33,894 bases of DNA, from contig JAIBBQ010000056.1 of the NCBI GenBank assembly GCA_019694595.1, positions 1 through 33,894 of the forward strand. Reading direction: 5' to 3'. Of this stretch, positions 8,967 through 27,686 are shown one piece after another. The DNA is from Myxococcaceae bacterium. Lineage in GTDB: Bacteria > Myxococcota > Myxococcia > Myxococcales > Myxococcaceae. The translations under genes were made by a program, and so were the position numbers. The notes beneath the pieces were generated by a model. That model had not been told where the DNA came from, did not search any database, and saw nothing but the letters and a program-made list of their open reading frames with translations. How positions within the stretch are numbered: position 1 is the stretch's first letter; every line of letters begins with the position of its first letter.

Positions 8967-9410
8967 ATGGACCGATTGCCACCCTTGCGCTCGCTGAAGG
9001 ACGTGAAGACCTTTCTGGGTGGGCTTGTGCCTACTGCCCCCCACACCGGGTGGCCCTTGCCCGAGGTGCTCACGCACTGCGCCCAAAGCATCGAGTACTC
9101 GGTGCGCGGCTACCCGGTGCTGCGCTCGGGGCTGTTCCGGGCGACCATCGGCCCGCTGGTGAAGCGGCGCTTCCTGGCGAAGGGGGCGATGTCGCACGAC
9201 CTGACCGCGCCCATCGCCGGCGCGCCCGCGCTGGAGCCGGCGCCGCCCTTCCCCGAGGCGGTGGCCCGCCTGCGCCAGGCCATCGAGACCTTCGAGGCGC
9301 ACCCGGGCCCCTTCGCACCGCACCTCGCCTACGGCCCTTGCACGAAGGACGAGTACGACGTGCTCCACGCGCTCCACGTGGCGGACCACCTGCGGGTCTT
9401 CGGGGCTTGA
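8967..9410 (+). CDS. DUF1569 (DinB-superfamily) protein
   Basis: A 147-residue soluble protein. It matches the DUF1569 pattern: a conserved His in the first helix (EVLTHCAQSIEYSVRGYPV), SGLFRATIGPLVKRRF, the MSHDLTAPIAGAP segment, and a C-terminal helix pair ending in LHVADHLRVFG. DinB-type four-helix bundles usually bind a metal through three histidines and include thiol transferases and enzymes of unknown reaction; His residues are at the expected places, but the substrate cannot be inferred. The ATG at 8967 begins 112 bases from the divergent kinase start. No paralogue or partner gene lies in the window. Confidence 0.85.
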   Translation: MDRLPPLRSLKDVKTFLGGLVPTAPHTGWPLPEVLTHCAQSIEYSVRGYPVLRSGLFRATIGPLVKRRFLAKGAMSHDLTAPIAGAPALEPAPPFPEAVARLRQAIETFEAHPGPFAPHLAYGPCTKDEYDVLHALHVADHLRVFGA

Positions 9411-9432
9411 CCGCCACCACCTGCCCCGTGGG

Positions 9433-9438
9433 TAGAGT
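9433..9438 (+). promoter_or_regulatory. Candidate -10 element of first six-Cys lipoprotein gene
   Basis: TAGAGT lies 42 bases upstream of the ATG at 9481 inside a leader that is copied almost unchanged before the next gene (TAGAGT at 10872-10877, 43 bases before its ATG). Conservation between the two leaders supports a functional element. Confidence 0.45.
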
Positions 9439-9480
9439 CGGGTGCGGCGGCGGGCCGGGTGGTCGGTGAGGGTGGACTCG

Positions 9481-10764
9481 ATGCGCTGGCTCCTCGTGGC
9501 GGTGTTCGTGGCCGGCTGTCCTTCTGCCTTCAAGCCGGGGCCGTGCGACGGCAGCGGCGGAATGTCGACGGGCGGGAGCGGCACCGGATCCTTTCAGGAC
9601 AGCGCGGCGCTGACCGGCGTTCGCCAGTCGGTGCATCTGGAGAGCCCCGTGAGCGGGTGCCTCGCCTCGAGCGAGCTCTCGGTCACCGCGAAGGTCTACG
9701 ACCAGGACAACGTCGAGGTGCCGGCCACGGTGGAGCACGTGGTGCTGGAAAGTTTCATCGCCAGCGCCGACGTCGTCTTCACGCCGGTGAACCCGGGGAA
9801 CCACCACCTCACCGCGCGCTTCGAGCCCAACCTCGGCATCCAGCAGGCCGACGTGGTGGTGGTGGCCGATCGCCGCGGAGACAAGGGCACGGCGGTGCAG
9901 GTGCCTTCGGGCACGACGTGTGACGCGGTGACCTTGTTGCCGTCGACCGCGGTGCTCTGCCTGCGCACGTCCCGTTCCCTGCTCGAGGTCTACCGCGCGG
10001 GAGCGCTGGTCCAGAGCATCACCGGGGTCTCGGCGTACGCCACCCGGGGCGACGTGGTGTGGACCGGCGGCGTCACGCTGGTGCGCGGCGAGGACCGCGG
10101 CGCCGGGATGCTGGCGAGGAGCGGCGCGATCGGCGGCGCGTCCGGCGCGCAGCTCAAGATCCTTCCGGGCGGCGACGTGCTGGAGATCACCCCCGGCCAC
10201 ATCTACCGCTCGGGCTTCGATGGCGGCGCGGTGGTGCAGCCCTTCGTGCCGGTCGCGGTGAACTTCAGCGGACCGGTGGCGCTGTCGCCAGGTGGCCTGC
10301 GGGTGCTCGGCATCGGCGCCAGGGGCGCGTGCGTGGCGTCGGTGCCTGGCCAGGGCCCGGCAGAGTCCGGCTGCAGCGAGCAGACGGGCTCGTCGATCGG
10401 CGCGGATCACGGCGGCGTGTGGTCCGGGAACAACGGCAGCGGCCTCGTCACCTACTTCGCGGCGCTGGACACGCTTCCGCTCGACGGCGGGCAGGTCACG
10501 TCGTCGCAGCTGACGCTCCCCAACAACTGGATCGTCCAGAGCTCGACCTTCGCTCCCGCGGTCGAAACCTCGGTGCCCGGCTTCGGTCCAGCGGGCCCCG
10601 CGGGCGACTCGATGGCGGTCGGCTCGGGCCTGCCACGCGCGAGCGGAGGAACGCTCATCCTCGAGGAGTTCGCGCCCAAGGCCGGCACCGCCCGGGGCGA
10701 CGACGTGCAGGTGCTGGTGACGGCACCCGACGGCACGATGCGCGTGGTCCAGCGAGGCCCGTGA
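9481..10764 (+). CDS. Six-cysteine tandem-family lipoprotein, member 1
   Basis: A 427-residue lipoprotein starting at the ATG at 9481 (MRWLL), which is directly followed by a signal peptide with lipobox VAGC (Cys13). A Gly/Ser linker leads to an Ig-like N-terminal domain (about 40-135, ending FTPVNPGNHHLTARFEPNLG) and then a propeller-like second half with SGAQLKILPGGDVLEIT, GGVWSGNN and a C-terminal TAPDGTMRVV. Cysteines at 22, 60, 147, 160, 284 and 298 recur at equivalent places in the next three gene products. I do not recognise the family. Member 2 is the closest relative, with long identical blocks. Probably an exported scaffold or sensor anchored in the envelope. Confidence 0.85.
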   Translation: MRWLLVAVFVAGCPSAFKPGPCDGSGGMSTGGSGTGSFQDSAALTGVRQSVHLESPVSGCLASSELSVTAKVYDQDNVEVPATVEHVVLESFIASADVVFTPVNPGNHHLTARFEPNLGIQQADVVVVADRRGDKGTAVQVPSGTTCDAVTLLPSTAVLCLRTSRSLLEVYRAGALVQSITGVSAYATRGDVVWTGGVTLVRGEDRGAGMLARSGAIGGASGAQLKILPGGDVLEITPGHIYRSGFDGGAVVQPFVPVAVNFSGPVALSPGGLRVLGIGARGACVASVPGQGPAESGCSEQTGSSIGADHGGVWSGNNGSGLVTYFAALDTLPLDGGQVTSSQLTLPNNWIVQSSTFAPAVETSVPGFGPAGPAGDSMAVGSGLPRASGGTLILEEFAPKAGTARGDDVQVLVTAPDGTMRVVQRGP

Positions 10765-10871
10765 TGCCCCGATGGCTGCGTTCCGAACCGGCTCCGGCCG
10801 GCACCACGCGCTGCGCAGGGCGCCCCCTCCGCGGGTCGTCAGGGCTTGAGCGCCATCTCCTGCCTCGTGAG

Positions 10872-10877
10872 TAGAGT
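10872..10877 (+). promoter_or_regulatory. Candidate -10 element of second six-Cys lipoprotein gene
   Basis: TAGAGT in the duplicated leader, 43 bases before the ATG at 10921. The surrounding 60 bases (10861-10920) align with 9422-9480, including CCGGGCCGGGT-like and GTCGGCGAAGG-like stretches. Confidence 0.45.
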
Positions 10878-10920
10878 GCCCGGGCCGGACCGGGCCGGGT
10901 CGTCGGCGAAGGCGGGAGCG

Positions 10921-12201
10921 ATGCGCTGGTCGGTGGTCGCCTGCATGCTCATGGCCTGCTCCACGCCGGGCGAGCCGTGCTCCGGCACCGGAGGCTCCAG
11001 CGGTGGAGGTCCCATCACCGGCCAGGCACGACTGGCGCTCACCGGGGTGGGCCAGACGCTGAGCTTCGAGGTGCCGCTCTCCGAGTGCCTGGCGCCGAGG
11101 GACGTCAGCGCGACCGCGACGGTGTTCGACCCGGACAACGGAGAGGTCGCAGTCACCGTGGACCACGTCGGGGCCTCGGGCCTGCTCGCCGGCGCCGACG
11201 TTCACTTCACCCCCGTGGTCCCGGGCGCCCACCACGTGCTGGTGCGCTTCGAGCCCAACCTCGGCATCGCGCAGGGCGACGTGGAGGTGGTGGCAGACCG
11301 CAGCAGCGCGCCAGGCGTCGCGGTCCAGGTGCCGGTCGGCACCATCTGCGATGCGGTGACGCTGCTCCCCTCACGCGCGGTGCTGTGCCTGCACACGGCC
11401 CTCGCCCAGCTCGACGTCTTCCGCGGCGGCGCGGCGGTGGACCGCATCTCCGGGGTCTCGACCTTCGTCACCCAGGGCGACGTGGTGTGGACCGACGGCA
11501 GCGCCCTGTCGCGGTGGGAAGACCGGGGCACGGGGCCACTGGTGGCCTCGGGCTCGGCCGCGGCCGTCTCGGGCGCACAGCTCAAGCTGTTGCCGGGCGG
11601 CGACGTGCTGGAGATCACCTCGAGCCTCATCACCCGCACGGGCTTCGATGGCGGCGCGCTCTGGGAGCCCTTCCCACCCGTGGTGGCGACCCTCGAGCCC
11701 CCGGTCGCGCTCTCTCCCGAAGGCGGCCGCGTCCTCAGCGTGGGCGTCAAAGGCGCCTGCGTGGCGTCCGTGCCGGGACCTGCGCGGCCGCAGTTCGGCT
11801 GCGACCACGCGCGGGGCACCACGGTGGCGTCCATCAACTCGGACCGGGGCGGCGTCTGGGCCGGGAGCCTCAACCTCGACGGCATCCTCTATTACTACCC
11901 GGCGACCGACGCGCTCCCGCTCGACGGCGGGCCGGTGCCGTCGCTGCGGTTCACGCTGCCTCCGAGGTGGACCGAGCTCGACGGCGCGGCGTCCTTCGCC
12001 GAGTCGACGGTGCCGACCCTCGGTCCACTGGGCACGGGCATCGATGCGCAGGTGGTCGCCTCGGCGCTGCCACGCCCCCGGGGCAGCGCAGTGGTGCTCG
12101 AGTCGTTCGCCCCGACGGGCGGCTCCGCGCGTGGCGACGAGCGCCAGGTGCTGGTGACGGCGCCCGACGGCACGATGCGCCTGGTCGAGCGAGGCCCGTG
12201 A
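10921..12201 (+). CDS. Six-cysteine tandem-family lipoprotein, member 2
   Basis: A 426-residue lipoprotein; ATG at 10921 (MRWSV) followed by a lipobox LMAC (Cys13). It is a close paralogue of the preceding gene: both share FEPNLGI, CDAVTLLPS.AVLCL, GDVVWT, SGAQLK.LPGGDVLEIT, GACVASVPG and VLVTAPDGTMR, in the same order and spacing. Conserved cysteines are at 20, 56, 143, 156, 280 and 294. The 156 bases separating it from member 1 contain a copy of the first gene's leader, so the duplication included the promoter. Its stop overlaps the next start as TGATG, implying translational coupling with members 3 and 4. Function unknown. Confidence 0.85.
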   Translation: MRWSVVACMLMACSTPGEPCSGTGGSSGGGPITGQARLALTGVGQTLSFEVPLSECLAPRDVSATATVFDPDNGEVAVTVDHVGASGLLAGADVHFTPVVPGAHHVLVRFEPNLGIAQGDVEVVADRSSAPGVAVQVPVGTICDAVTLLPSRAVLCLHTALAQLDVFRGGAAVDRISGVSTFVTQGDVVWTDGSALSRWEDRGTGPLVASGSAAAVSGAQLKLLPGGDVLEITSSLITRTGFDGGALWEPFPPVVATLEPPVALSPEGGRVLSVGVKGACVASVPGPARPQFGCDHARGTTVASINSDRGGVWAGSLNLDGILYYYPATDALPLDGGPVPSLRFTLPPRWTELDGAASFAESTVPTLGPLGTGIDAQVVASALPRPRGSAVVLESFAPTGGSARGDERQVLVTAPDGTMRLVERGP

Positions 12202-13469
12202 TGCGCTCACCGCTCCTGGCCCTCGCGCTCACGCTCGTCTCGGCCTGCGGCCCGGCGGCGCCCGCCACCTGCAAGATTTCGCTCGCCCGTCCCACCGGGC
12301 GGCGCTTCGACGACGGCACGGTGGGCGTGCAGGGCCAGAGCCGCGACGTGGTCTTCACCTTCCAGGTCGCGACCTGCGCCACCGCGAACGACCTGTCGTT
12401 CCGCGTGCAGGTGACCGACCCGGCCAACCAGCCCGTCGAGGCCAGCGTGGCCCAGGCGACGGTGAAGAGCGGCGATGCCCGCGCCACCGTGCGCTTCCGG
12501 CCGTCGGTGGAAGGGCTGCACCACGTGACGCTGGGGGTGGAGCCCAACGTCGTCATCCTCCAGACGGAAGACCTCGCCGCCCGCGACCTGCGGCAGCGCG
12601 AAGGCGTGCCGCTGCCGCTGCCTCGGGGGACCGTCTGCTCGGCGTACGCGGTGCTGCCTTCGGACGGAGGAACGCTCTGTGCCGCGCCGGGGGGCGAGAC
12701 CACGCTGCACCGCGCGGACCGACCGCCGCTGCGCCTGAGCGAGGAAGAGGCCAACCTCTCCGTGGCCGGCGACGTCGCCTGGCTGCACGACCGCAGCGGG
12801 CTGTGGTCGCTGACCTTTCCGGCCGACGGTGGCGTGGAGAAGGACAGCGTGGGCCTCGCCTCGCAGCGCGACGGTGGGCTCCTTGGCCTGTCCTCGGGAG
12901 ACGTGGTGAACCTGAAGCAGACCTCCGTCGCCCGCTTCCGCGCCGGGGTGGGGCCGGTCGGCGAGGTCTTGCTCGGCCAGCGCCCGTTCGCCGCCGCCGT
13001 CTCCAGCGACGAGGCGACGCTGCTCACCGCCAGCCCTCAGCAGCTCTGCGTGATGGACGTGCCGCCCACCTTCCGCCCGCCGGTCTGCAAGAGCATCAGC
13101 ACCAGGGTGGTGGGCCAGAGCCCCGGCGGGCTCTATCTGCTCGGCGCGCTGGGCACGGTGCCCCAGCTCTCGCGGCTCACCGCCCGGCAGGCGCTCGACG
13201 CCGGCCCCACCGGCCCGGTGGTGGCGCTGGCGGTGGGGTGGTCGGCCGCGCCCCTGCCCGGCGGCACGGCCCAGGTCCCGGTGCTCTCCGGTCCGCTGGC
13301 GGCCGACGACTCCGGCCCACGCGGGGTGCTGGTGCCGAGGCTCGAAGGCGCGCTGCTCGCGCTGGAGGTGCACGCGGCGCCCGTCGGCACCACCGTGCTC
13401 GCCGACGAGCACTTCGTCTACCGCTTCTCGCCCGACGCCGGCGCGGTGGCGGTGCCGAGGGGCCCGTGA
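12201..13469 (+). CDS. Six-cysteine tandem-family lipoprotein, member 3
   Basis: A 422-residue lipoprotein whose ATG at 12201 overlaps the previous stop by one base (TGATG). Signal peptide with lipobox VSAC (Cys16). Overall identity with members 1 and 2 is low, but architecture is the same: an Ig-like domain (RVQVTDPANQPVEASV...VRFRPSVEGLHHVTLGVEPN), a Cys pair at 146/160 in GTVCSAYAVLPSDGGTLC, then a propeller-like half with LCVMDVP and a second pair at 283/296, plus cysteines 24 and 59. It lacks the Gly/Ser linker of members 1 and 2. Coupled to member 4 by a GTGA overlap. Function unknown. Confidence 0.82.
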   Translation: MRSPLLALALTLVSACGPAAPATCKISLARPTGRRFDDGTVGVQGQSRDVVFTFQVATCATANDLSFRVQVTDPANQPVEASVAQATVKSGDARATVRFRPSVEGLHHVTLGVEPNVVILQTEDLAARDLRQREGVPLPLPRGTVCSAYAVLPSDGGTLCAAPGGETTLHRADRPPLRLSEEEANLSVAGDVAWLHDRSGLWSLTFPADGGVEKDSVGLASQRDGGLLGLSSGDVVNLKQTSVARFRAGVGPVGEVLLGQRPFAAAVSSDEATLLTASPQQLCVMDVPPTFRPPVCKSISTRVVGQSPGGLYLLGALGTVPQLSRLTARQALDAGPTGPVVALAVGWSAAPLPGGTAQVPVLSGPLAADDSGPRGVLVPRLEGALLALEVHAAPVGTTVLADEHFVYRFSPDAGAVAVPRGP

Positions 13470-14749
13470 GCGTGCGCCTCGCACTGGCGCTCCTCGCGCT
13501 GGGCCTCGCGGCGTGTCCCGCCCCGGTGGACACCAGCCTGGTGCTCCGCTGCGTCGACGCCGGGCCGCCGCGGCCCGCCACCATCTCCCGCGCCGGCGAC
13601 GAGGTGGAGCTCGACGTCTCCATCGCCGCGCCGCAGCTGAGCTGCGACCAGCGGCTCGACGCGCTGCCGTCGGTGCGCGCCACGGTGGACGACCCCGACA
13701 ACCACCGGGTCGCCGTGGAGGCGAAGGCCCCCACCCTCTCGATGACGCCGGCCCCGGCGCTCACCGCCCGGCTGCGCTTCCGCACCGAGCTCCCGGGCAG
13801 CTACCACGTCACCGTCTTCTTCGAGCCGGTGGGCTCGGTACAGCTCGACGTCGCCGCGGCGCGCGTGCGCTCGGGCCTCGACGCGGGGGAGCCGCTCGCC
13901 GCGGTACACGGCGCGCGCTGTCGGGCAGCGACGCCGCTGCCCTTCTCGGCCGGAGTGCTGTGCGAGGAAGCGACCGGGGTGCGCGTCTTCTCCGACGCCG
14001 GGGAGCAGCGGCTCTCCGACCGGGAAGCGCTGGTGGTGGTGGAGGCGCAGCGGCTGTGGGTGCTGCGCGATGCGGGCGTCGACGTCTGGGGGGCCGGTGA
14101 CGCGGGCGAGCTCGCGCTGCGCCTGAGCAGCTTCACCTCGGCGCCGCCGGTGGTGGCGACCGCGGTGCGCGACGGCGGCATCGCGGTGGTGACCTTCACC
14201 CCGGAGACGGGCATCGCGCTGCTCGACCTGCTCGCCTTCGACGATGCGCACCTCGGGGTCGGCCTCTACACGTCGGCGCGCTCGGTGTTGCTGGCCGGGC
14301 ACCCGCCGGCGCTGGGCTTCTGGGCGACCATCGCCGACGACGTGGTGCTCTACGGCGATGGCCGCTCGCTCTGCACCGGGCCGCTCGATGCGGGAGCACC
14401 CGGCAGCTGTCCGACCATCACCCTCGTCGCGCCGGTGAGCGGCGAGCCCGGGGTGCTCTGGCTCCGGGAGCTCTTCGAGCCACGGCTGGGCTCGGCCCAC
14501 CTGCTCCAGGGCGTGCCGGTGGAGTCGGCGGGCCTGAGCCTCCCGCGTGGCTGGTCGGTGGAGCCGCGGCTCGGGCCGGGACAGGCGCCCGTCATCCGCC
14601 GCGAGGCCACGCGGCTGTTGCCGATGCTCCAGGGCGGCGCGCTCACCCTGGAGGCGTGGGAAGACGACGGTTTCGAGGTGCTGGGCGCGGACTCGGCGGA
14701 GGTGCGCGGCCTGCGGCCCGACGGCACCTGGGTGCGCATCGCGCGGTGA
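13466..14749 (+). CDS. Six-cysteine tandem-family lipoprotein, member 4
   Basis: A 427-residue lipoprotein. The GTG at 13466 overlaps the previous stop (GTGA) and opens a signal peptide with lipobox LAAC (Cys17); a second GTG two codons later is an alternative. It is the most diverged member, recognisable by the Ig-like segment (ATVDDPDNHRVAVE...LRFRTELPGSYHVTVFFEP) and by the six cysteines at 29, 60, 152, 166, 303 and 315, which keep the spacing of the other three. The second half has weak blade-like repeats (LWVLRDAGVDVWG, VVLYGDGRSLC). The next gene is convergent, 12 bases downstream, so the array ends here. Function unknown. Confidence 0.8.
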   Translation: MSVRLALALLALGLAACPAPVDTSLVLRCVDAGPPRPATISRAGDEVELDVSIAAPQLSCDQRLDALPSVRATVDDPDNHRVAVEAKAPTLSMTPAPALTARLRFRTELPGSYHVTVFFEPVGSVQLDVAAARVRSGLDAGEPLAAVHGARCRAATPLPFSAGVLCEEATGVRVFSDAGEQRLSDREALVVVEAQRLWVLRDAGVDVWGAGDAGELALRLSSFTSAPPVVATAVRDGGIAVVTFTPETGIALLDLLAFDDAHLGVGLYTSARSVLLAGHPPALGFWATIADDVVLYGDGRSLCTGPLDAGAPGSCPTITLVAPVSGEPGVLWLRELFEPRLGSAHLLQGVPVESAGLSLPRGWSVEPRLGPGQAPVIRREATRLLPMLQGGALTLEAWEDDGFEVLGADSAEVRGLRPDGTWVRIAR

Positions 14750-15533: not shown

Positions 15534-16784
15534 GTGCGCGCCCTGGTCCTCGCCACCACCTGCCTCGCCACCGCCGCGTTCGCGCAGGCGACTCCATTCC
15601 AGGGGAGCCAGCGGCTCTTGCTGTCGAGCGGCACCCTGCGGGGCAGCCCGCGCATGATGGGCCTGGGCGGCGCCTACGTGGGCATCGCCGAGGGCGCCGA
15701 AGGCATGACGCGCAACGCGGCGAGCATCGTGTCCAAGGACGCGCACTTCGACGGCGACTCGTCGCTCGACTTCGGCGGCACGATGCACTTCCTCATGCCC
15801 GGCTCGGTGAAGGAGCAGGACTGGGACAACGACGGCCGCCCGGAGCAGCGCGAAGGCCCGCTCGCCAACCTGGGCACGCAGGTTTTCTATTCAGTCGTCG
15901 CGTTCCGCTACAAGAACTTCGGCATCGGCGGCGGGTTCGACCTGCAGAACTTCCTCGCCGCCACCCGGAAGGACGGCGAGACGTTCGACCGCGTGCTGAA
16001 CGTGGGCCTGCTGCACTTCTTCGGCGCGCTCGGGTACAGCTTCTGGAACGACCAGATCCTCGTCGGGGCGGGCGTGGAGACCACCCACGCGCTCTTCGGC
16101 TACGGCGAGAAGCCCGACGGGCAGCTCCTGCCCGGCTTCAACGACTCGGCGGGCTACCACGGCTGGGGGCTGCAGCTCGGCGCGCTCTGGCGCCCGGAGA
16201 ACGAGAACTACCGCATCGGCTTCGCCTTCAGCCCCAACACCACCGCCTGGCAGGCGGGGAGCAAGGCGCAGATCGGCGGGTGGACCTTGCCGTCGCAGGT
16301 CGTCTCCCCGGGCCGCGTCTCGCTCGGCGGCAGCTTCGCCTTCGGAGAAGGCCGCGCGTACAACATCACCTCCCGCGAAGGGTGGATGCTGGGCCCCGAC
16401 GGCCAGCCGGGCCGCACCGCGGCGATGACCAAGTGGCTGGTGACCGCGCAGCTCGACGTCACCCTGCCGGTGGACAACGCGGTGGCGATGTCGCCCTTCC
16501 TCGAGCAGCCGCTCACCGACGCCATTCCCGCGGGCGACCGGCCAACCTTCTGTCTGCGCGCGGCGGTGGAGAAGGAAGTCTTCATCGACCGCCTGCGGCT
16601 GCGGCTCGGCGGCTACCTCGAGCCGCCCACCACCGCGACGGGGCCGATCCTCCGGCCGCACCTCAACTTCGGCTTCGAGATCTTCCTCTTCAAGGTGAAG
16701 ACCACCCGCATGTCGTTCGGGCTGTCGTTCGACTTCGCGCGCCTGTACCAGAACCTCTCCTTCGCGGTGCTGGTGTGGAAATGA
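15534..16784 (+). CDS. Outer membrane beta-barrel protein (PorV/FadL-like appearance)
   Basis: A 416-residue protein starting at GTG 15534 with a cleavable signal peptide (RALVLATTCLATAAFAQA) and no lipobox. The mature N terminus (SGTLRGSPRMMGLGGAYVGIAEGAEGMTRNAASIV) is the characteristic start of FadL/PorV-type barrels, where an N-terminal segment with a Gly-rich turn and an N-A-A motif plugs the barrel. The rest has alternating aromatic/Gly strands such as FGIGGGFDLQNFLAA, WGLQLGALWRP and YRIGFAFSPN, and ends in an aromatic-rich terminal strand (FAVLVWK). It probably moves hydrophobic compounds or acts as a barrel adaptor. The next gene follows 12 bases downstream and may be co-transcribed. 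Confidence 0.82.
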   Translation: MRALVLATTCLATAAFAQATPFQGSQRLLLSSGTLRGSPRMMGLGGAYVGIAEGAEGMTRNAASIVSKDAHFDGDSSLDFGGTMHFLMPGSVKEQDWDNDGRPEQREGPLANLGTQVFYSVVAFRYKNFGIGGGFDLQNFLAATRKDGETFDRVLNVGLLHFFGALGYSFWNDQILVGAGVETTHALFGYGEKPDGQLLPGFNDSAGYHGWGLQLGALWRPENENYRIGFAFSPNTTAWQAGSKAQIGGWTLPSQVVSPGRVSLGGSFAFGEGRAYNITSREGWMLGPDGQPGRTAAMTKWLVTAQLDVTLPVDNAVAMSPFLEQPLTDAIPAGDRPTFCLRAAVEKEVFIDRLRLRLGGYLEPPTTATGPILRPHLNFGFEIFLFKVKTTRMSFGLSFDFARLYQNLSFAVLVWK

Positions 16785-16796
16785 GAGCGCCCTGAC

Positions 16797-17222
16797 ATGG
16801 ACACCGGCACCCGCTTGAACGACGCCGAGCTCGCGCTCGCCCGCGAGGCGCTCCCCGACTGGTCGGTCGACGCCCAGGAGCTGCGCCGCAACTACGAGTT
16901 CGCCACCTTCCTCGACGCGGTGGCCTTCGTGCAGTGCGTGGCCCAGGCCGCGGAAGAGGCCGACCACCACCCGGACATCGACATTCGCTACACGATGGTG
17001 ACGCTGGCGCTCACCACCCACGATGCGGGGGGCGTCACCGAGAAGGACACCGCGCTCGCTTCCACCTGCGAGGAGCTCTTCGCCCTGCCCGCCTTCTCCG
17101 GCGACGGCGAGGACCCGCTGGGTGACGAGGGCGAAGACGGCGAGGGGCTCTCCGACGAGGCCCCCGACGAGGAAGCGCCGAGCGTGCCCGCGCTCACCTT
17201 CAAGCGCCCCATCATCGGCTGA
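16797..17222 (+). CDS. phhB: Pterin-4a-carbinolamine dehydratase with acidic C-terminal extension
   Basis: A 141-residue cytoplasmic protein. Residues 1-95 match PCD/DCoH, which dehydrates 4a-hydroxytetrahydropterin to recycle the cofactor of aromatic amino acid hydroxylases: EEADHHPDIDIRY (His57, His58), then TTHDAGGVTEKD (His75, Asp84) give the usual active-site set. The family is normally about 95-115 residues; here a tail of some 45 residues follows, strongly acidic (GDGEDPLGDEGEDGEG...DEAPDEEAP) and ending in a short basic/hydrophobic stretch. No phenylalanine hydroxylase gene is in the window. The gene lies 12 bases after the barrel protein gene and 120 bases before the sigma factor. 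Confidence 0.9.
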   Translation: MDTGTRLNDAELALAREALPDWSVDAQELRRNYEFATFLDAVAFVQCVAQAAEEADHHPDIDIRYTMVTLALTTHDAGGVTEKDTALASTCEELFALPAFSGDGEDPLGDEGEDGEGLSDEAPDEEAPSVPALTFKRPIIG

Positions 17223-17342: not shown

Positions 17343-18122
17343 GTGAACCTCGCGACTGCACAGCGCGCGCTGGACGAAGGCGAGGCCCGTTACGGCCCGC
17401 TCGGGGTGAACCTCGAGGCCTTCGCCCGCTTCCTCGCCGAGCACGGCCGCGCGGCGCGCACCGCGGCCTTCGCCGACCTCGCGCTGGCCTTCGCCTGTGG
17501 CACCGGCAGCGCCCAGGCCCACGCCGCCATCGAGCGCCACGTCTTCTCGCAGCTGCCGGCGGCGCTGGCGCGGCTCGACCGGGGCCGCGGCCGCGTCGAC
17601 GACGTGCTGCAGCAGCTGCGCGAGCAGTACTTCGTGGGCCAGAAGCCCGGCGTGCTGGGCTACCTCGGCAAGGGCCCGCTCGCGGGGTGGTTCCGCACCG
17701 TGGCCACCCGCATGACGCTGGGGCTCGACCGCTCGGGGCCTTCGGGCCACGACACCGAGCGCGAGCTCGAGGCGCTCTCCACCACCATCGACGTGGAGCG
17801 GCTGCAGCTGCGCAAGGAGCACGGCCCCCTCTTCCGCCGGGCGTTCGCCGCGGCCTTCGAGTCGCTCTCCAGCCGCGAGCGCGCGGTGCTGCGGCTGCAT
17901 CTGGTGGAAGGCCAGTCCATCGATCAGATCGCCGCGGTGTACGAGATTCACCGCGCCACCGCCGCGCGCTGGGTGCAGCGGGTGCGCGACGTGCTGCTCG
18001 AGCGCACCGAGGACCGCTTCGCCCGGGACAGCAAGACGTCTCCCGAGGAGCTCGACAGCCTGATGCGCTCGCTGGTGAGCGCCATCGACCTGAGCATCGA
18101 GCGGCTCTTGCGGGAAGGCTGA
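17343..18122 (+). CDS. ECF-like sigma-70 family RNA polymerase sigma factor (myxobacterial type)
   Basis: A 259-residue protein starting at GTG 17343. The C-terminal part is a clear sigma region 4: FESLSSRERAVLRLHLVEGQSIDQIAAVYEIHRATAARWVQRV, with the helix-turn-helix at IDQIAAVYEIHRATAARWVQ (about residues 197-217). The central part resembles region 2 but is diverged, as in a group of long sigma-70-like proteins described mainly in myxobacteria (TIGR03001-like; assignment by memory). Ten bases downstream begins a kinase with an N-terminal anti-sigma-type zinc motif, so the two genes form an operon and the kinase is the likely regulator. The 120-base leader has competing hairpins. Confidence 0.88.
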   Translation: MNLATAQRALDEGEARYGPLGVNLEAFARFLAEHGRAARTAAFADLALAFACGTGSAQAHAAIERHVFSQLPAALARLDRGRGRVDDVLQQLREQYFVGQKPGVLGYLGKGPLAGWFRTVATRMTLGLDRSGPSGHDTERELEALSTTIDVERLQLRKEHGPLFRRAFAAAFESLSSRERAVLRLHLVEGQSIDQIAAVYEIHRATAARWVQRVRDVLLERTEDRFARDSKTSPEELDSLMRSLVSAIDLSIERLLREG

Positions 18123-18132
18123 CAGCGGCCCG

Positions 18133-20745
18133 ATGCGCTGCGGCGACGAGCAGCAGCTGAGCGCCTGGGCGTCGGGGTGGCTCGACGCCGACGAGAGCGC
18201 GGCGGTGCGCGAGCACCTCGACGGGTGCGCGAGCTGCCGGCTCCTCGCCGACGCCATCGTGGGCGCGGACGGCGACGGCGCGCTGGTGCTCAAGCCCGGC
18301 GCGCGGCTCGAGCACTACGTCATCGCCGAGTGGCTCGGCTCCGGGGCGATGGCCGACGTCTTCGCCGCCGAGGACACGCGGCTCGGGCGGGCGGTGGCGC
18401 TCAAGGTGCTGCGCGCGGAGTGGAAGACGCAGGCCGCCCACATGCTGCAGACCGAGGCGCGGGCGATGGCGGCGCTCAGCCACCCCAACGTCGCCACCGT
18501 CTTCGACATCGGCCAGGTGAAGCAGACGCCGTACCTGGTGATGGAGCGCCTGCCCGGCGGCACCCTGCGCCACTGGCTCGCGAGCCCGCGCACCGAGAGC
18601 GAGGTGCTGCGCGTCTTCGCGGCGCTCGCCGACGGGCTCCACCACGCCCACCGCCTCGGGGTGCTGCACCGCGACTTCAAGCCCGAGAACGTGCTCTTCA
18701 CCGACGACGGGGTGCCGCGCATCACCGACTTCGGGCTCGCGCTGCTCGAGGAGCCCCGGGGCACGCCCGCGCCCGCGCCGCAGCCGGCGCGCGTGGCCGG
18801 CACGCCCGCCTTCCTCGCTCCCGAGCTGCTCCGAGGTTCGCCGGCCTCCGCGGCGAGCGACCAGTACGCCTTCGGGCGGGCCCTGCAGCTCGCGCTGGAG
18901 CCGCTCGCGCCCGGCCGCGCGGCGCTCGACGCCGTCACCCGGATGCTCTCGAGCGAGCCCCGAGCGCGCTTCGAGGACCTGGCCGCGGTGGCGTCCGCCC
19001 TGCGACAGGCCGACCCGGTCCGGCGGGTGGCGAGGCGCCGGGTCGCCCTCGCGCTTTCCGCGGTGGCCGTGGCCGCGGGGCTGTCGTGGGCCGGGCTGCG
19101 GGCGCTCGAGGTGCGCCGCTGCCAGCGCTTCGCCGCCGACGCTTCACCGCGCGGGAGTGCGCCCTTTCCGTGGCTCCAGCGGGAGTTCGAGCTGCTGGGC
19201 CAGCGTCAGACGGAGCAGCTCGAGCGCGCCTGCCGGTTGGGTGGCGTCGAATCGCCCGCGGCCGCCTGTCTCGAGGTCGCTGCGGCCGTCACCAGCCGGA
19301 CCTGGGCCGACCTCGGCCAGCCGGGGCTCCCGGCCGAGGACGCGCTCGACCAGTTCCTCGCGCTGCCGGTGCAGCAGTGCGAGCTCGTCCCCGGCAGCGA
19401 GCAGGCGCCCTTCCAGGGGGCGGCGCTCGCGCGGCGGCGGCAGCTCGAGCGCGCGCTCGGCGGACACTGGGCCGACCCCCTGGCGCTGGGCGCCCAGGCT
19501 TCCAGCCTCGGCGACGACGACCTCGCGGTGCGGCTCGAGGCGGGCATGCGGCGGCTCACCCTGCTCGAGCGCGGCGACCTCTCGAGCTGCGACGAGGAGC
19601 GCGCGGCGACGCTGGCGAACCTGGAGCGCGACGCGCAGCGGGCCCACGCGCCCGGGGCGCAGCTCTTCGTCACCAGCCGCCTCGCGATGTGCCAGCGCCG
19701 CCAGGGGGAACGGCCCCGGGTGCTGGACACGCTGCAGCGGGGCGCCGACGCCGCCGCGCTGCTGGGGCCCCGCTCGCTCGCCGCGCTCAACTTCCAGCTG
19801 CGGCGCGCGCGCCTGCTCGCCACCATCGAGCGGCGCGCGGAGGCCCGCGAGGTGCTGCTCCCGCTGCGGGCGGCGCTGCCTTCGACCGTGGGCCCGGGGC
19901 ACCCGCTGTCCGGCAGCCTGCTGTCCACCGAGGCCTACGTGGGGACGGAGCCGCTCGACCCCGTGACGTCTGCCAGGCTGTACGGGGCGGCGCTCGCCGA
20001 CCTGGTGCCCGCGCTGGGGCCCGACGCGCGCGAGGTGCGCTTCGCACGCCACAACCGCGCCAGCATGCTCGCCGAGCGGTTCGCCTACGTGCAGGCGCTC
20101 GAGGAGCTCGAGCAGGTGAGCGAGTCGCAGCGGCGCTCCGAGGGGGCGCTCTCGCCCGGGGTGGTCTCCGAGCAGGTCCCGCTCTTCCTCGCCGTGGGCC
20201 GCATCCCCGACGCCGTCGCCGCGGCGCGCGCGCTGGAGAGCGAGGTCCCGGTGGACCGGCTGTCCACCATGGTGTCGGCGCAGCAGTTCCTGGGCGCGTG
20301 GGCGGAAGGACTGCTCGCGGCGGGAGAGGCCGCCGAGGTCGAGCAGCGGCTCAAGGCGGCGCGGGCCATCGAGCACGTCGCCCCGCCGGACGAGTCGGCG
20401 ATGGCCGAGCGGCGCTCGCAGGAGGCGCGGGCGCTCGCGGCGCTCGGTCGCCCGGCAGAGGGCCTGAAGCTCCTCGACGAGGTGTCGGAGCGCGTGGCGC
20501 GGCTGGGGCCCACCGAGCGCCAGCAGGTGGCGTGGGCCCGGGTGGTGGCGCTGGTCGCCTTGGGTCGGCGGGACGCCGCGGCGGCGGTGGCCTCTGCGCT
20601 GCCGCTCGACGACTCCCCGGGCATCGACCCTGCGAGACGCGCGTGGCTCCACCTCCTCGCGGGGGTGGAGCCGGAGCGCGCGCGGACCTTCGCAGCCACC
20701 CTGGGCCCCCGCGCCGCGTGGGCGCTCGAGGCCGGGCGGCCCTGA
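18133..20745 (+). CDS. Membrane Ser/Thr kinase with N-terminal zinc anti-sigma motif and C-terminal helical repeat region
   Basis: An 870-residue protein. Residues 1-40 carry an anti-sigma zinc finger (ZAS-type): Cys3, His28-x3-Cys32-x2-Cys35 in the setting WLDADESAAVREHLDGC. The kinase domain follows (about 62-300): a slightly unusual G-loop GSGAMADVF (69-77), Lys91, HRDFKPENV with Asp181, DFG Asp199 and GTPAFLAPEL. A membrane helix lies at about 303-322 (ALALSAVAVAAGLSWAGL), then about 550 residues of Ala/Leu/Arg-rich helical repeats resembling TPR arrays, predicted outside the cytoplasm. It is 10 bases downstream of a sigma factor gene. The simplest reading is a transmembrane sensor that binds the sigma factor through the zinc motif and phosphorylates it or a partner. 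Partner choice is inference. Confidence 0.9.
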   Translation: MRCGDEQQLSAWASGWLDADESAAVREHLDGCASCRLLADAIVGADGDGALVLKPGARLEHYVIAEWLGSGAMADVFAAEDTRLGRAVALKVLRAEWKTQAAHMLQTEARAMAALSHPNVATVFDIGQVKQTPYLVMERLPGGTLRHWLASPRTESEVLRVFAALADGLHHAHRLGVLHRDFKPENVLFTDDGVPRITDFGLALLEEPRGTPAPAPQPARVAGTPAFLAPELLRGSPASAASDQYAFGRALQLALEPLAPGRAALDAVTRMLSSEPRARFEDLAAVASALRQADPVRRVARRRVALALSAVAVAAGLSWAGLRALEVRRCQRFAADASPRGSAPFPWLQREFELLGQRQTEQLERACRLGGVESPAAACLEVAAAVTSRTWADLGQPGLPAEDALDQFLALPVQQCELVPGSEQAPFQGAALARRRQLERALGGHWADPLALGAQASSLGDDDLAVRLEAGMRRLTLLERGDLSSCDEERAATLANLERDAQRAHAPGAQLFVTSRLAMCQRRQGERPRVLDTLQRGADAAALLGPRSLAALNFQLRRARLLATIERRAEAREVLLPLRAALPSTVGPGHPLSGSLLSTEAYVGTEPLDPVTSARLYGAALADLVPALGPDAREVRFARHNRASMLAERFAYVQALEELEQVSESQRRSEGALSPGVVSEQVPLFLAVGRIPDAVAAARALESEVPVDRLSTMVSAQQFLGAWAEGLLAAGEAAEVEQRLKAARAIEHVAPPDESAMAERRSQEARALAALGRPAEGLKLLDEVSERVARLGPTERQQVAWARVVALVALGRRDAAAAVASALPLDDSPGIDPARRAWLHLLAGVEPERARTFAATLGPRAAWALEAGRP

Positions 20746-20748
20746 CGG

Positions 20749-22383
20749 TCAGTTCTTGCAGTACTTGCCGTTGTTGCCCGACAGCCAGAAGGGCGACGGC
20801 AGGTGCAGGCCGATGGTGAGCTTGAGGCACTCGTTGCGGTCGGCCACCTCGCCGGCGATGACCGACAGCCCGTTCACCGCGCCGCCGAGGATCAGGTAGG
20901 CGATGTCGTCGCCGGGGAAGGGCGAGGCGGCCACCCAGCCGGCGACGCCCGAGTCGAGCGCGGCCGCGGCGTCGTTGGAGGCGTTGGCGATGGACTGGGT
21001 GGTGTGGCGGTTGAAATAGAACGAGGTGGACACGATGCCCTTGTGCCACTCACCCACGCCGTTGCTGGCGAGGGTCTCCGGCTCGTTGTCCGCGTCCATC
21101 CACGCGCGGCCGCTGATGGTGCCCACCACGTCGATGATGACCTGCGCCCCGGCGCGCTGCCCCGGCGAGCGCAGCGCCACCGTGGCGTAGCCTTCGTCGT
21201 CGAGCGGCACGATGGCCAGGTTCGCCTTGTTCCCCTGGAAGGGCATGAAGGACAGCGTCGGGTACTCGGTGTTGCCGCCGCCCACGGTGAGGATCGCCGG
21301 GGTGATGGGGCTCGAGCCGCTGGGGTCGGCGACGGTGACGTTGGCGATGACCGCGGCGTTCTGGCCCGGCACCTGCGGGAGGTTGCTCAGCTTGATGCGG
21401 CGCAGGTCGGTGGAGCGCTTGCCCGTGTCGGTCCAGAAGTAGTTGCCGGCCTGCCGGGTGTCGAGCAGCCGCACCGGCGGAAAGATGGTGACCGTGCCGT
21501 CGGAGCCCGGGCGCTCGATGAGGTAGGCCTGCAGCGTCGAGCGCAGCTTGAGCCCCGCGTACGTGTAGACGTTGAGGTACCCGTCGTCGGTGGCGAGGAA
21601 CTGCGTGTTGGTCTGCGGACCCGCGCTGTAGTTGCCGTGGGAGAACTCGCCGCGGCTGCCGCCGGTGTACGCGGTGAGGTAGCCCTCGCCCGCGGGGTCG
21701 GCCACGTCGAAGTTGACGATGCCGCCGTGAATGAGGCCGCTGAACGGAATGTTGTCCGCCGACTGGCCGCCGGTGATGCGGTAGTTGGCGACACCGCCCG
21801 CCGGCAGGACCAGCTGCCCCTGCGGGTTGGGGTAGACGCCCGCGGGGATGAGCATCGACTGCACCGGGGCAATCTTGGCGCCGGTCCCGTCGTTCACGAA
21901 TCGGCCGGTGACGTCGACGATGACGTGGGTCGAGGCCGTCTCTCCGTTGAAGATGAAGAAGCAGCGCGACGGGTCGAGTTCCACCGCGGCGGCGTTGGCG
22001 ATGGGCTTGCCGACCTTGAAGTTGAGGTTGGAGGCGATGGGCAGCGACGGCCCCGGGTACGCGGTCAGGTAGCCTTCGCCGTCGGCGTTGACCGCCACCA
22101 GGCTCACCATCACCGCGCGGGTGTTGGCGGGCACCGGCGGGCAGAGCCTGTGGGTGGTGCCCCGGCCCATCTTCTGCCGGCTGTCCATGTTGCGGCTGTC
22201 CCAGAGCCGGTAGGTGCCTTCGGAGAGGAAGGTCAGCCCGCTGGTGAGCGGCTTCTCGGCCACCGCGGCGAGCGGATCCGGATCCACCGGGACCGAGACC
22301 TCCGCGGTGCCACAGCCCGCGAACAGCGCAGCCACGACGAGCAACGGAAGCAGGAAGAAGACGCGAAGCGGGCGGTGAGTCAT
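20749..22383 (-). CDS. Lipoprotein with three surface-type 'LLDTR' repeat modules
   Basis: A 544-residue lipoprotein: signal peptide with lipobox FAGC (Cys24). Three related modules follow. The first (about 50-165) runs from YRLWDSRN through GEGYLTAYPGPSLPIASNLNF to STHVIVDVTGRF; the second (about 170-290) includes AGEGYLTAYTGGS and GYLNVYTYAGLK; the third (about 300-425) runs from RLLDTRQAGNYF through AVIANVTVADPSG to AQVIIDVVGTISG. The pattern RLLDTR ... N.T...P...GYLT.YP ... VIVDV.G.F is a known repeat of exported proteins in actinobacteria and some myxobacteria, often attached to peptidoglycan amidases or peptidases. Here there is no catalytic domain; the last 120 residues are unassigned. 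Its stop lies 3 bases from that of the convergent kinase gene. Confidence 0.82.
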   Translation of the reverse strand: MTHRPLRVFFLLPLLVVAALFAGCGTAEVSVPVDPDPLAAVAEKPLTSGLTFLSEGTYRLWDSRNMDSRQKMGRGTTHRLCPPVPANTRAVMVSLVAVNADGEGYLTAYPGPSLPIASNLNFKVGKPIANAAAVELDPSRCFFIFNGETASTHVIVDVTGRFVNDGTGAKIAPVQSMLIPAGVYPNPQGQLVLPAGGVANYRITGGQSADNIPFSGLIHGGIVNFDVADPAGEGYLTAYTGGSRGEFSHGNYSAGPQTNTQFLATDDGYLNVYTYAGLKLRSTLQAYLIERPGSDGTVTIFPPVRLLDTRQAGNYFWTDTGKRSTDLRRIKLSNLPQVPGQNAAVIANVTVADPSGSSPITPAILTVGGGNTEYPTLSFMPFQGNKANLAIVPLDDEGYATVALRSPGQRAGAQVIIDVVGTISGRAWMDADNEPETLASNGVGEWHKGIVSTSFYFNRHTTQSIANASNDAAAALDSGVAGWVAASPFPGDDIAYLILGGAVNGLSVIAGEVADRNECLKLTIGLHLPSPFWLSGNNGKYCKN

Positions 22384-26600: not shown

Positions 26601-27686
26601 TCAGGGCAGCAGCGTGCTGTTGACGCAGAGCCGGGGCACGCTGGTGGGGAAGACGTAGCTCAGCATCAGACACTGCTCGTCGAGCTCGAGGCTGGCGCCG
26701 GTGTGGATGACCCGGTTGGTCGGGTTGACGTAGTCGCAGGCGTACTGCGCGCCGGCGGTCGGCGCGGGGAAGGCGGGGGCGGCCCAGGTGGACGCGCCGG
26801 GGTGCTCCCAGTCGTTCCCGTCGAAGAGCGTCGTCGCGCCGTCGAACACCCGGGCGCGCGTGCCCTGCTTGTGGGTGAACACGGACAGCCAGGTGAACTT
26901 GGTGCTGGTGGGCAGCGGGCACGTGGCCGAGGCCGTCGTCGAGCCGCTCGCGGGAATGTTGAGGTTCGCGTTGTAGGCGACCAGCGAGTCCGCGCGCGTC
27001 ACCCCGGCGTCGACCGGGTAGAGCCCCACCTCGAGCTCCGCGCTGGAGTCGAGCGCTCCGCTCGTGGGGTTGGTCACCACCAGGTACAGGTAGCCGGACG
27101 TGCCGGGGGCGATGACCTTGGCGAGCGGGTGGCCCGCGCCGTCGTCCGCGGGGAACGACCAGCCGGCGTCAGGCTCCCACGCCGAGTACGCCCACGACGC
27201 CTTGCCTGGGTCCTGCGCGCAGTCGGTGGTGGTGAAGGTGCCCGCGTCGGCCAGCGCGGTGTTCGACAGCCAGAGCGACAGGTAGTGCACCGACGCCGTC
27301 GACCGGGAGCGCCACGACTTCACCGCCACCTCGGCCGCGTTCGCGGTGCGGAAGTGGTAGCAGAACGCGGTCTGCGTGCCTGCGTCGACGCTGAAGGCCG
27401 GCACGGTGATGGTGAAGGCGAGCGGGTTGCCCGCATCGACGCCCGCGTCGACGCTGCCGCCGTCCATTCCAGCATCGAGCACGCCGGCGTCGGAGCCCGC
27501 GTCCGGCGCGCCACCGTCGCTCAGGCCCGCGTCGATGCCCGCGTCCACACCCGCGTCGAGGCCGGCGTCCGTGCCAGCGTCGACTCCGGCGTCGAGGCCC
27601 GCGTCTTGCCCGCCCGCGTCCGACGGACCGGGGCTTCCCGAGCAACCAACCACCACGACACAGAGGACCAGGCAAGCGGAGCGCAT
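26601..27686 (-). CDS. DAG-repeat lipoprotein resembling copper type II ascorbate-dependent monooxygenase
   Basis: A 361-residue lipoprotein (ATG at 27686; lipobox VVGC, Cys15). Residues about 20-85 are a low-complexity linker of DAG/DAGVDAG units. The rest looks like the two-module copper type II monooxygenase fold (PHM/DBH-like): first module FTITVPAFSVDAGTQTAFCYHF, KSWRSRSTASVHYLSLWLS; second module WLSVFTHKQGTRARVF, DGNDWEHPG, YACDYVNPTNRVIHTGASLELDEQCLML. In active enzymes the first module has a His pair, the second an HxH motif and a Met ligand (EMC); here I see VHY, a single His in FTHKQGT and DEQC, so copper ligands are largely missing. It may be a binding protein derived from the enzyme. 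Assignment is by pattern only. The gene ends 59 bases before the LpoA-like start. Confidence 0.72.
   Translation of the reverse strand: MRSACLVLCVVVVGCSGSPGPSDAGGQDAGLDAGVDAGTDAGLDAGVDAGIDAGLSDGGAPDAGSDAGVLDAGMDGGSVDAGVDAGNPLAFTITVPAFSVDAGTQTAFCYHFRTANAAEVAVKSWRSRSTASVHYLSLWLSNTALADAGTFTTTDCAQDPGKASWAYSAWEPDAGWSFPADDGAGHPLAKVIAPGTSGYLYLVVTNPTSGALDSSAELEVGLYPVDAGVTRADSLVAYNANLNIPASGSTTASATCPLPTSTKFTWLSVFTHKQGTRARVFDGATTLFDGNDWEHPGASTWAAPAFPAPTAGAQYACDYVNPTNRVIHTGASLELDEQCLMLSYVFPTSVPRLCVNSTLLP
27430..27624. repeat. Low-complexity GCGTCGA-type repeat coding the DAG linker
   Basis: Imperfect 9- and 18-base units coding for DAG, LDAG, VDAG and TDAG fill most of this stretch, on the minus strand of the lipoprotein gene. 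Period is a multiple of three. The linker is Asp-rich, unlike the Gly/Ser-rich ones elsewhere in the window. Confidence 0.8.

Follow-up and report, generated by a model that had tools for sequence, protein, structure and literature searches.

What do four adjacent genes do that each encode a lipoprotein, and do their products belong together? The question is raised by a 33,894-nucleotide stretch of DNA from a Myxococcaceae bacterium (contig JAIBBQ010000056.1; the whole stretch is called the window below). The first-pass annotation of the window had placed four lipoprotein genes of 422 to 427 residues, here LP1 to LP4, at positions 9481 to 14749, and had described them as diverged paralogues whose preserved order suggests joint assembly, perhaps as a hetero-oligomer on the cell surface. 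The open reading frames and the lipoboxes found at the N-terminus of LP1, LP2, LP3 and LP4 agree with the gene assignment. The features are listed in Table 1. The DUF1569 gene before the array reaches with its 3' end into the LP1 upstream region. Scanning the window for Rfam families and tRNA genes gave no match.

Table 1. Features of the lipoprotein array and of the genes that follow it (positions in the window)
Feature	Position	Strand	Description
LP1 upstream region	9362..9480	+	Duplicated block, copy 1; motif CTTGAnCGCCAnCnCCTGCCnCGTGnGTAGAGT at 9406-9438
LP1	9481..10764	+	Lipoprotein, 427 aa; lipobox Cys13; Cys 22, 60, 147, 160, 284, 298
LP1 domains (predicted)			Ig-like, ~residues 46-130; propeller-like, ~131-427
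LP2 upstream region	10801..10920	+	Duplicated block, copy 2; motif at 10845-10877
LP2	10921..12201	+	Lipoprotein, 426 aa; tandem duplicate of LP1, 57% identity
LP3	12201..13469	+	Lipoprotein, 422 aa; start ATG; 1-nt overlap with LP2 stop
LP4	13466..14749	+	Lipoprotein, 427 aa; start GTG; 4-nt overlap with LP3 end
OMP, predicted outer-membrane protein	15534..16784	+	416 aa; assigned by reading of the sequence; single copy in the genome
PCD, pterin-4a-carbinolamine dehydratase	16797..17222	+	Pfam PF01329, 2e-28

The relationship of the four proteins was examined with a hidden Markov model (HMM) trained on 57 members from other genomes; the window's own genome was left out to avoid circularity. 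LP1, LP2, LP3 and LP4 scored 190, 182, 132 and 134 bits, compared to 6.6 bits for the best of 200 shuffled copies. The independent model bears out the description of the four as diverged paralogues, which share about 26 to 32% pairwise identity outside the LP1/LP2 pair. The remark that no named family fits also held, since searches of Pfam and NCBIfam revealed no family match naming these proteins, and no paper on the family was found in a literature search limited to open-licence papers. Used alone as a single-protein query of the genome contigs, LP1 gave no match, and a narrower alignment recovered two loci only, in Myxococcus sp. CA023 and Myxococcus xanthus AM003. The segment PG.HH/YHV....EP, noted on first reading, proved to be a feature of the whole family: F100, P102, G106 and P116 are kept in 58 to 65 of 66 members. 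Conservation reaches 85% of members or more in the columns of seven cysteines, of these four residues and of W194, R202, G272, W314 and P366, and no Asp, Glu, His, Lys or Ser occurs among them. These best-kept columns appear to be structural residues without a catalytic set. Genes around the relatives were called with a simple codon-usage script; 67 of the 75 members at the examined loci are full-length, and several of the others are cut by contig ends.

Inspection of the cysteines confirmed the six positions reported earlier in all four proteins. Mature LP1 to LP4 contain exactly seven cysteines each, that is, the lipid-bearing cysteine and the listed six (offset from mature to full numbering: +12 for LP1 and LP2, +15 for LP3, +16 for LP4). 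Among 66 full-length members, the lipobox cysteine and then the six others are kept in 63, 65, 66, 65, 65, 60 and 61, and the mature chain contains a total of 5, 7 or 9 cysteines in 61 of the 66, corresponding to 4, 6 or 8 non-lipid cysteines. The six cysteines are a family hallmark and behave as pairs: Cys147 and Cys160 are absent together in one member (L081), and Cys284 and Cys298 are jointly displaced or lost in four (three L039 members and L089). The paired losses argue for disulfides 147-160 and 284-298, which leaves 22-60 as the third; the three pairs are supported, not proven. An even number of non-lipid cysteines together with paired loss, as found here, is the mark of a disulfide-stabilised exported protein.

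The N-terminal part of the proteins resembles filamin domains. The Pfam model Filamin (PF00630) matched 9 of 25 members weakly (best E value 6e-4); LP3 reached 19 bits (E value 0.0026), which is under the gathering cut-off of 26.9 bits. In a profile search of the Protein Data Bank (PDB), filamins led the list, with filamin-C first (E value 0.0015). The Ig part is filamin-like, yet it is not classed as a Filamin/ABP280 repeat. The NHL, WD40, PQQ and Kelch propeller models of Pfam matched none of the 25 members at E values up to 0.1. AlphaFold models were generated for two members that share 30% identity, LP1 (from 3 sequences) and LP3 (from 6), with the window proteins and the Myxococcus proteins of L074/L075 as input. 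The mean pLDDT was 46 and 48, respectively, with values of 67 to 82 over most of the Ig part in the LP3 model. Foldseek returned the filamin-NHL protein Lin41 as the top match of both models (2e-5 and 2e-6), followed mostly by beta-propellers. VIA-align likewise returned mostly propellers, at Z scores of 8 to 10 over approximately residues 106 to 407 of the mature chain; these matches come from weak models, as the pLDDT of the propeller region is about 25 to 70 in both. Because both models have a mean pLDDT below 50 and TM-scores to the structural matches of about 0.2 to 0.3, the fold assignment rests on the consistency of the matches. The two-domain fold proposed in the first-pass annotation is the best guess for the two modelled members, although the models are poor, and an Ig-like plus propeller architecture is likely.

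Known proteins of comparable architecture were considered. TRIM71/Lin41 (PDB entries 6fq3 and 6fpt) has a filamin-type Ig domain and, after it, a beta-propeller, which is the order predicted for the LP proteins. However, it is a eukaryotic, cytoplasmic, RNA-binding protein without a lipid anchor, NHL repeats were not matched by the sequences of the lipoproteins, and the TM-score is low because the models are poor. The likeness is best taken as architectural analogy, not membership. BamB of the Bam complex is a lipid-anchored outer-membrane propeller of about 400 residues, as the LP proteins are likely to be; it is conserved and widespread and has no Ig domain, whereas the LP proteins are fast-evolving and lineage-restricted, and they did not match the BamB/PQQ family models in Pfam and NCBIfam. 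The archaeal surface-layer protein 1l0q (tandem YVTN propeller and PKD) also combines a propeller with an Ig-like fold (VIA-align Z 8.5, rmsd 6.3, 166 aligned), but it differs in domain order and repeats and has no sequence match. The paralogous families of Myxococcus xanthus in TIGRFAMs/NCBIfam are restricted to myxobacteria, as the LP family is, and some consist of lipoproteins; none of these models matches any LP protein tested. Many periplasmic enzymes have propellers, and quinoprotein dehydrogenases and virginiamycin B lyase were among the structural matches, as expected if the LP proteins were secreted or surface enzymes with a propeller catalytic domain. Given best-kept columns devoid of catalytic-type residues and the absence of any enzyme family match in Pfam or NCBIfam, we regard an enzymatic role as highly improbable.

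Analysis of the N-termini addressed the cellular location. The signal peptide with lipobox and Cys+1 typical of bacterial lipoproteins is found across the family: the lipobox cysteine is aligned in 63 of 66 members, and the remaining three look like start-site or alignment artefacts. In M. xanthus lipoproteins, Lys at position +2 is the inner-membrane mark and Ala at +7 the matrix mark, and outer-membrane lipoproteins carry none (PMC3222651). Residue +2 of the LP proteins is P, S, A, L, G, T or E; Lys+2 occurs in none of the 63 members and Ala+7 in two, one of which is LP3. Since Lys+2 is missing and Ala+7 is rare, the outer membrane is favoured, at either face, under a sorting rule that is a weak predictor only. 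The LP proteins are predicted to be lipidated and not to be retained in the inner membrane; the sequence argues no further, for example to surface exposure. From these features we infer an outer-membrane location.

The LP family, with roughly 140 members, was detected in 57 of the 96 genomes surveyed from the window's GTDB family, among them Myxococcus genomes. A survey of 195 genomes of the phylum yielded only one other genome, with a marginal partial match (E value 3.5e-4), and within the phylum the family is essentially restricted to Myxococcaceae. The relatives mostly stand alone as single genes, each at a locus of its own. Almost all Myxococcus genomes have two copies at two sites, and the maximum is 10 copies per genome. 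The genome of the window (7.28 Mb, 394 contigs) has about 10 members: four in the window, three on contig C152 and one each on C289, C212 and C277. Three genera are free of LP genes, namely g26 (all 16 genomes), g8 (six) and g12 (four).

One genomic position recurs. At 13 loci in other genera, the gene order is glpK, LP, PCD and predicted OMP. Most of these sites contain one LP gene, one site contains two (L045) and another three (L041). In genera without LP genes, the glpK-PCD-OMP order is intact, with no lipoprotein gene between glpK and PCD; the copy number at one site is therefore 0, 1, 2 or 3. In the window, the array adjoins PCD and the only OMP copy of the genome, with a Vut_1 transporter gene on the opposite strand in between, and glpK is located elsewhere (contig C222). 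The OMP gave no match in Pfam, NCBIfam or the PDB. OMP and PCD were observed to travel together across the family, usually with glpK, with or without LP genes. In one genome, the glpK-site LP gene is split over two frames and is probably a pseudogene (L096; G103:C1, ~6729435-6730801).

Phylogenetic analysis clustered the LP members of the window's own genome together (support 86/83). The four window proteins do not form a single clade in the best tree, and such a clade was not rejected (p = 0.215). A strict orthology of the glpK-site LP genes with the window array, which have the position beside OMP and PCD in common, was rejected by the AU test (p = 0.005), and the same test with all own-genome members gave p = 0.038. 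The shared position may be old, with later replacement, or may result from repeated insertion near the same genes.

The evolutionary rate at the glpK site was compared in four close within-genus pairs, two of which are from one genus. Protein identity was 67 to 84% for LP, 98 to 99% for glpK and 94 to 98% for OMP. Nei-Gojobori dN/dS ratios were 0.41 to 0.77 for LP, 0.07 to 0.09 for glpK and 0.05 to 0.17 for OMP; the method may bias the ratio on GC-rich genes, which would affect the flanking genes equally. At the glpK site, LP evolves several times faster than the flanking glpK and OMP genes. By domain, with seven pairs pooled, dN/dS was 0.80 in the linker, 0.59 in the Ig part and 0.40 to 0.54 in the propeller. 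Two other loci gave lower values, the second Myxococcus locus 0.28 to 0.35 and an Mla-linked one 0.15, so the pace of the LP genes depends on the locus. The whole-gene ratio never exceeded 1.

These data bear on the possibility that an LP protein is a helper or partner of the neighbouring OMP, in the manner of BamB or of a PorV-type accessory protein. It would account for the OMP and PCD genes adjoining LP genes at the 13 glpK-site loci and for the position of the window array beside the only OMP copy, and Foldseek matched LP3 to BamB (7ttc_B), among other structures. However, the OMP persists in genera without LP, many LP genes belong to genomes in which no OMP homologue was detected (g5 and g17), the LP rate is several times that of the OMP, and the AU test places the window proteins outside the glpK-site clade. 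We consider such a partnership distinctly unlikely.

The arrangement of the array itself was then set against the proposal of a single hetero-oligomer. The upstream regions of LP1 and LP2 share 77 nt at 78% identity (9362-9438 and 10801-10877). A 33-nt pattern drawn from both copies occurs within the window only at those two places, which is not expected by chance. LP1 and LP2 arose by tandem duplication of a unit about 1.44 kb long, upstream region included; this duplication is a later event that carried its own upstream region along. Since each of the two genes has a copy of the upstream block, they probably have separate promoters. The coupled translation noted earlier is plausible at LP2-LP3 (TGATG) and LP3-LP4 (GTGA) but not at LP1-LP2, where the genes are 156 nt apart; judged from their 1- and 4-nt overlaps, LP2, LP3 and LP4 are probably co-translated. 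That overlap fits products assembling as one complex. The claim of an array kept in order for this purpose is nevertheless not supported, since the relatives are mostly single genes, as with the two per Myxococcus genome, and copy number at one fixed site changes between genera. Array size varies as well, and other arrays are mostly non-overlapping: gaps between their genes are 15 to 197 nt, and overlapping LP genes are found only in the window and at one junction of the L081 array. With LP1 and LP2 each having its own duplicated upstream region, a hetero-oligomer of all four products seems very unlikely. Arrays of two or three LP genes were present at eight other examined loci and consist mostly of lineage-specific groups. 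The window array is one among many lineage-specific expansions.

The rapid change of the family could also result from relaxed constraint. The LP proteins would then be weakly constrained and dispensable: the disulfide-bound fold is kept, the surface, on which little depends, drifts, and duplication and loss are near neutral. Whole genera lack LP while glpK-PCD-OMP is intact, the glpK-site copy in G103 is split between two frames, and whole-gene dN/dS is below 1, all of which suits this explanation. On the other hand, the great majority of members are full-length with the six cysteines kept, almost all Myxococcus genomes retain their two copies at two sites, and it is hard to see why expansion would recur independently if the proteins had no use. 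We therefore regard dispensability as rather unlikely.

The reading that we favour, at about even confidence, is that the LP proteins are disulfide-pinned, fast-diversifying outer-membrane binding proteins restricted to Myxococcaceae. The data establish the homology of the members, the cysteine pattern, the distribution, the synteny, the changes in copy number and the rapid evolution. Around a conserved scaffold the sequence changes quickly, and conserved residues of catalytic appearance are lacking, which makes binding the most likely mode of action. Likewise, a fold that is kept, a fast surface, a labile copy number and a range of one family make up the pattern of binding proteins with a changing partner. 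It is from these patterns that we infer the binding role and the kind of ligand. LP1 to LP4 would represent a local, lineage-specific expansion of a Myxococcaceae outer-membrane lipoprotein family. In each protein, the N-terminal lipid anchor would be followed by a short variable linker, then by a filamin-like Ig domain and finally by a beta-propeller. The 22-60 disulfide would join the linker to the Ig domain, and 147-160 and 284-298 would close short propeller loops or hairpins. The propeller face and the Ig loops may contact a varying partner (prey, kin, phage or extracellular material), and the binding repertoire would broaden as genes duplicate.

Myxobacteria must tell kin from prey, and they carry large sets of unexplained lipoproteins. 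The LP family is a well-defined one that general family databases have missed, and it is present at two fixed sites in the model genus Myxococcus. It combines a six-cysteine signature and a plausible binding architecture with rates and copy numbers that follow the pattern to be expected of recognition proteins. Only tentatively do we extend this to an undescribed myxobacterial recognition repertoire, which would arise by repeated tandem duplication and rapid change and determine the binding targets of the outer membrane (kin, prey or phage).

Further observations concern the surroundings of LP genes. In one genus group (g5) and one relative, an LP member lies beside an Mla/MCE-like lipid-transport operon (L043, L058, L091, L092, L094 and L097); read from sequence alone, the operon contains genes for an ABC ATPase, two permeases, an MCE protein and an AarF/UbiB-like kinase. 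Ser/Thr kinases are common at LP loci, and they are common in these genomes. On the minus strand of the window, more genes for predicted lipoproteins or exported proteins follow one another between positions 20749 and 27686; the one at 26601-27686 encodes a long Asp/Ala/Gly-rich repeat behind the signal peptide. Positions 17343 to 20745 of the window encode a sigma-70 region 4 protein, directly followed by an apparent anti-sigma/Ser-Thr kinase fusion.
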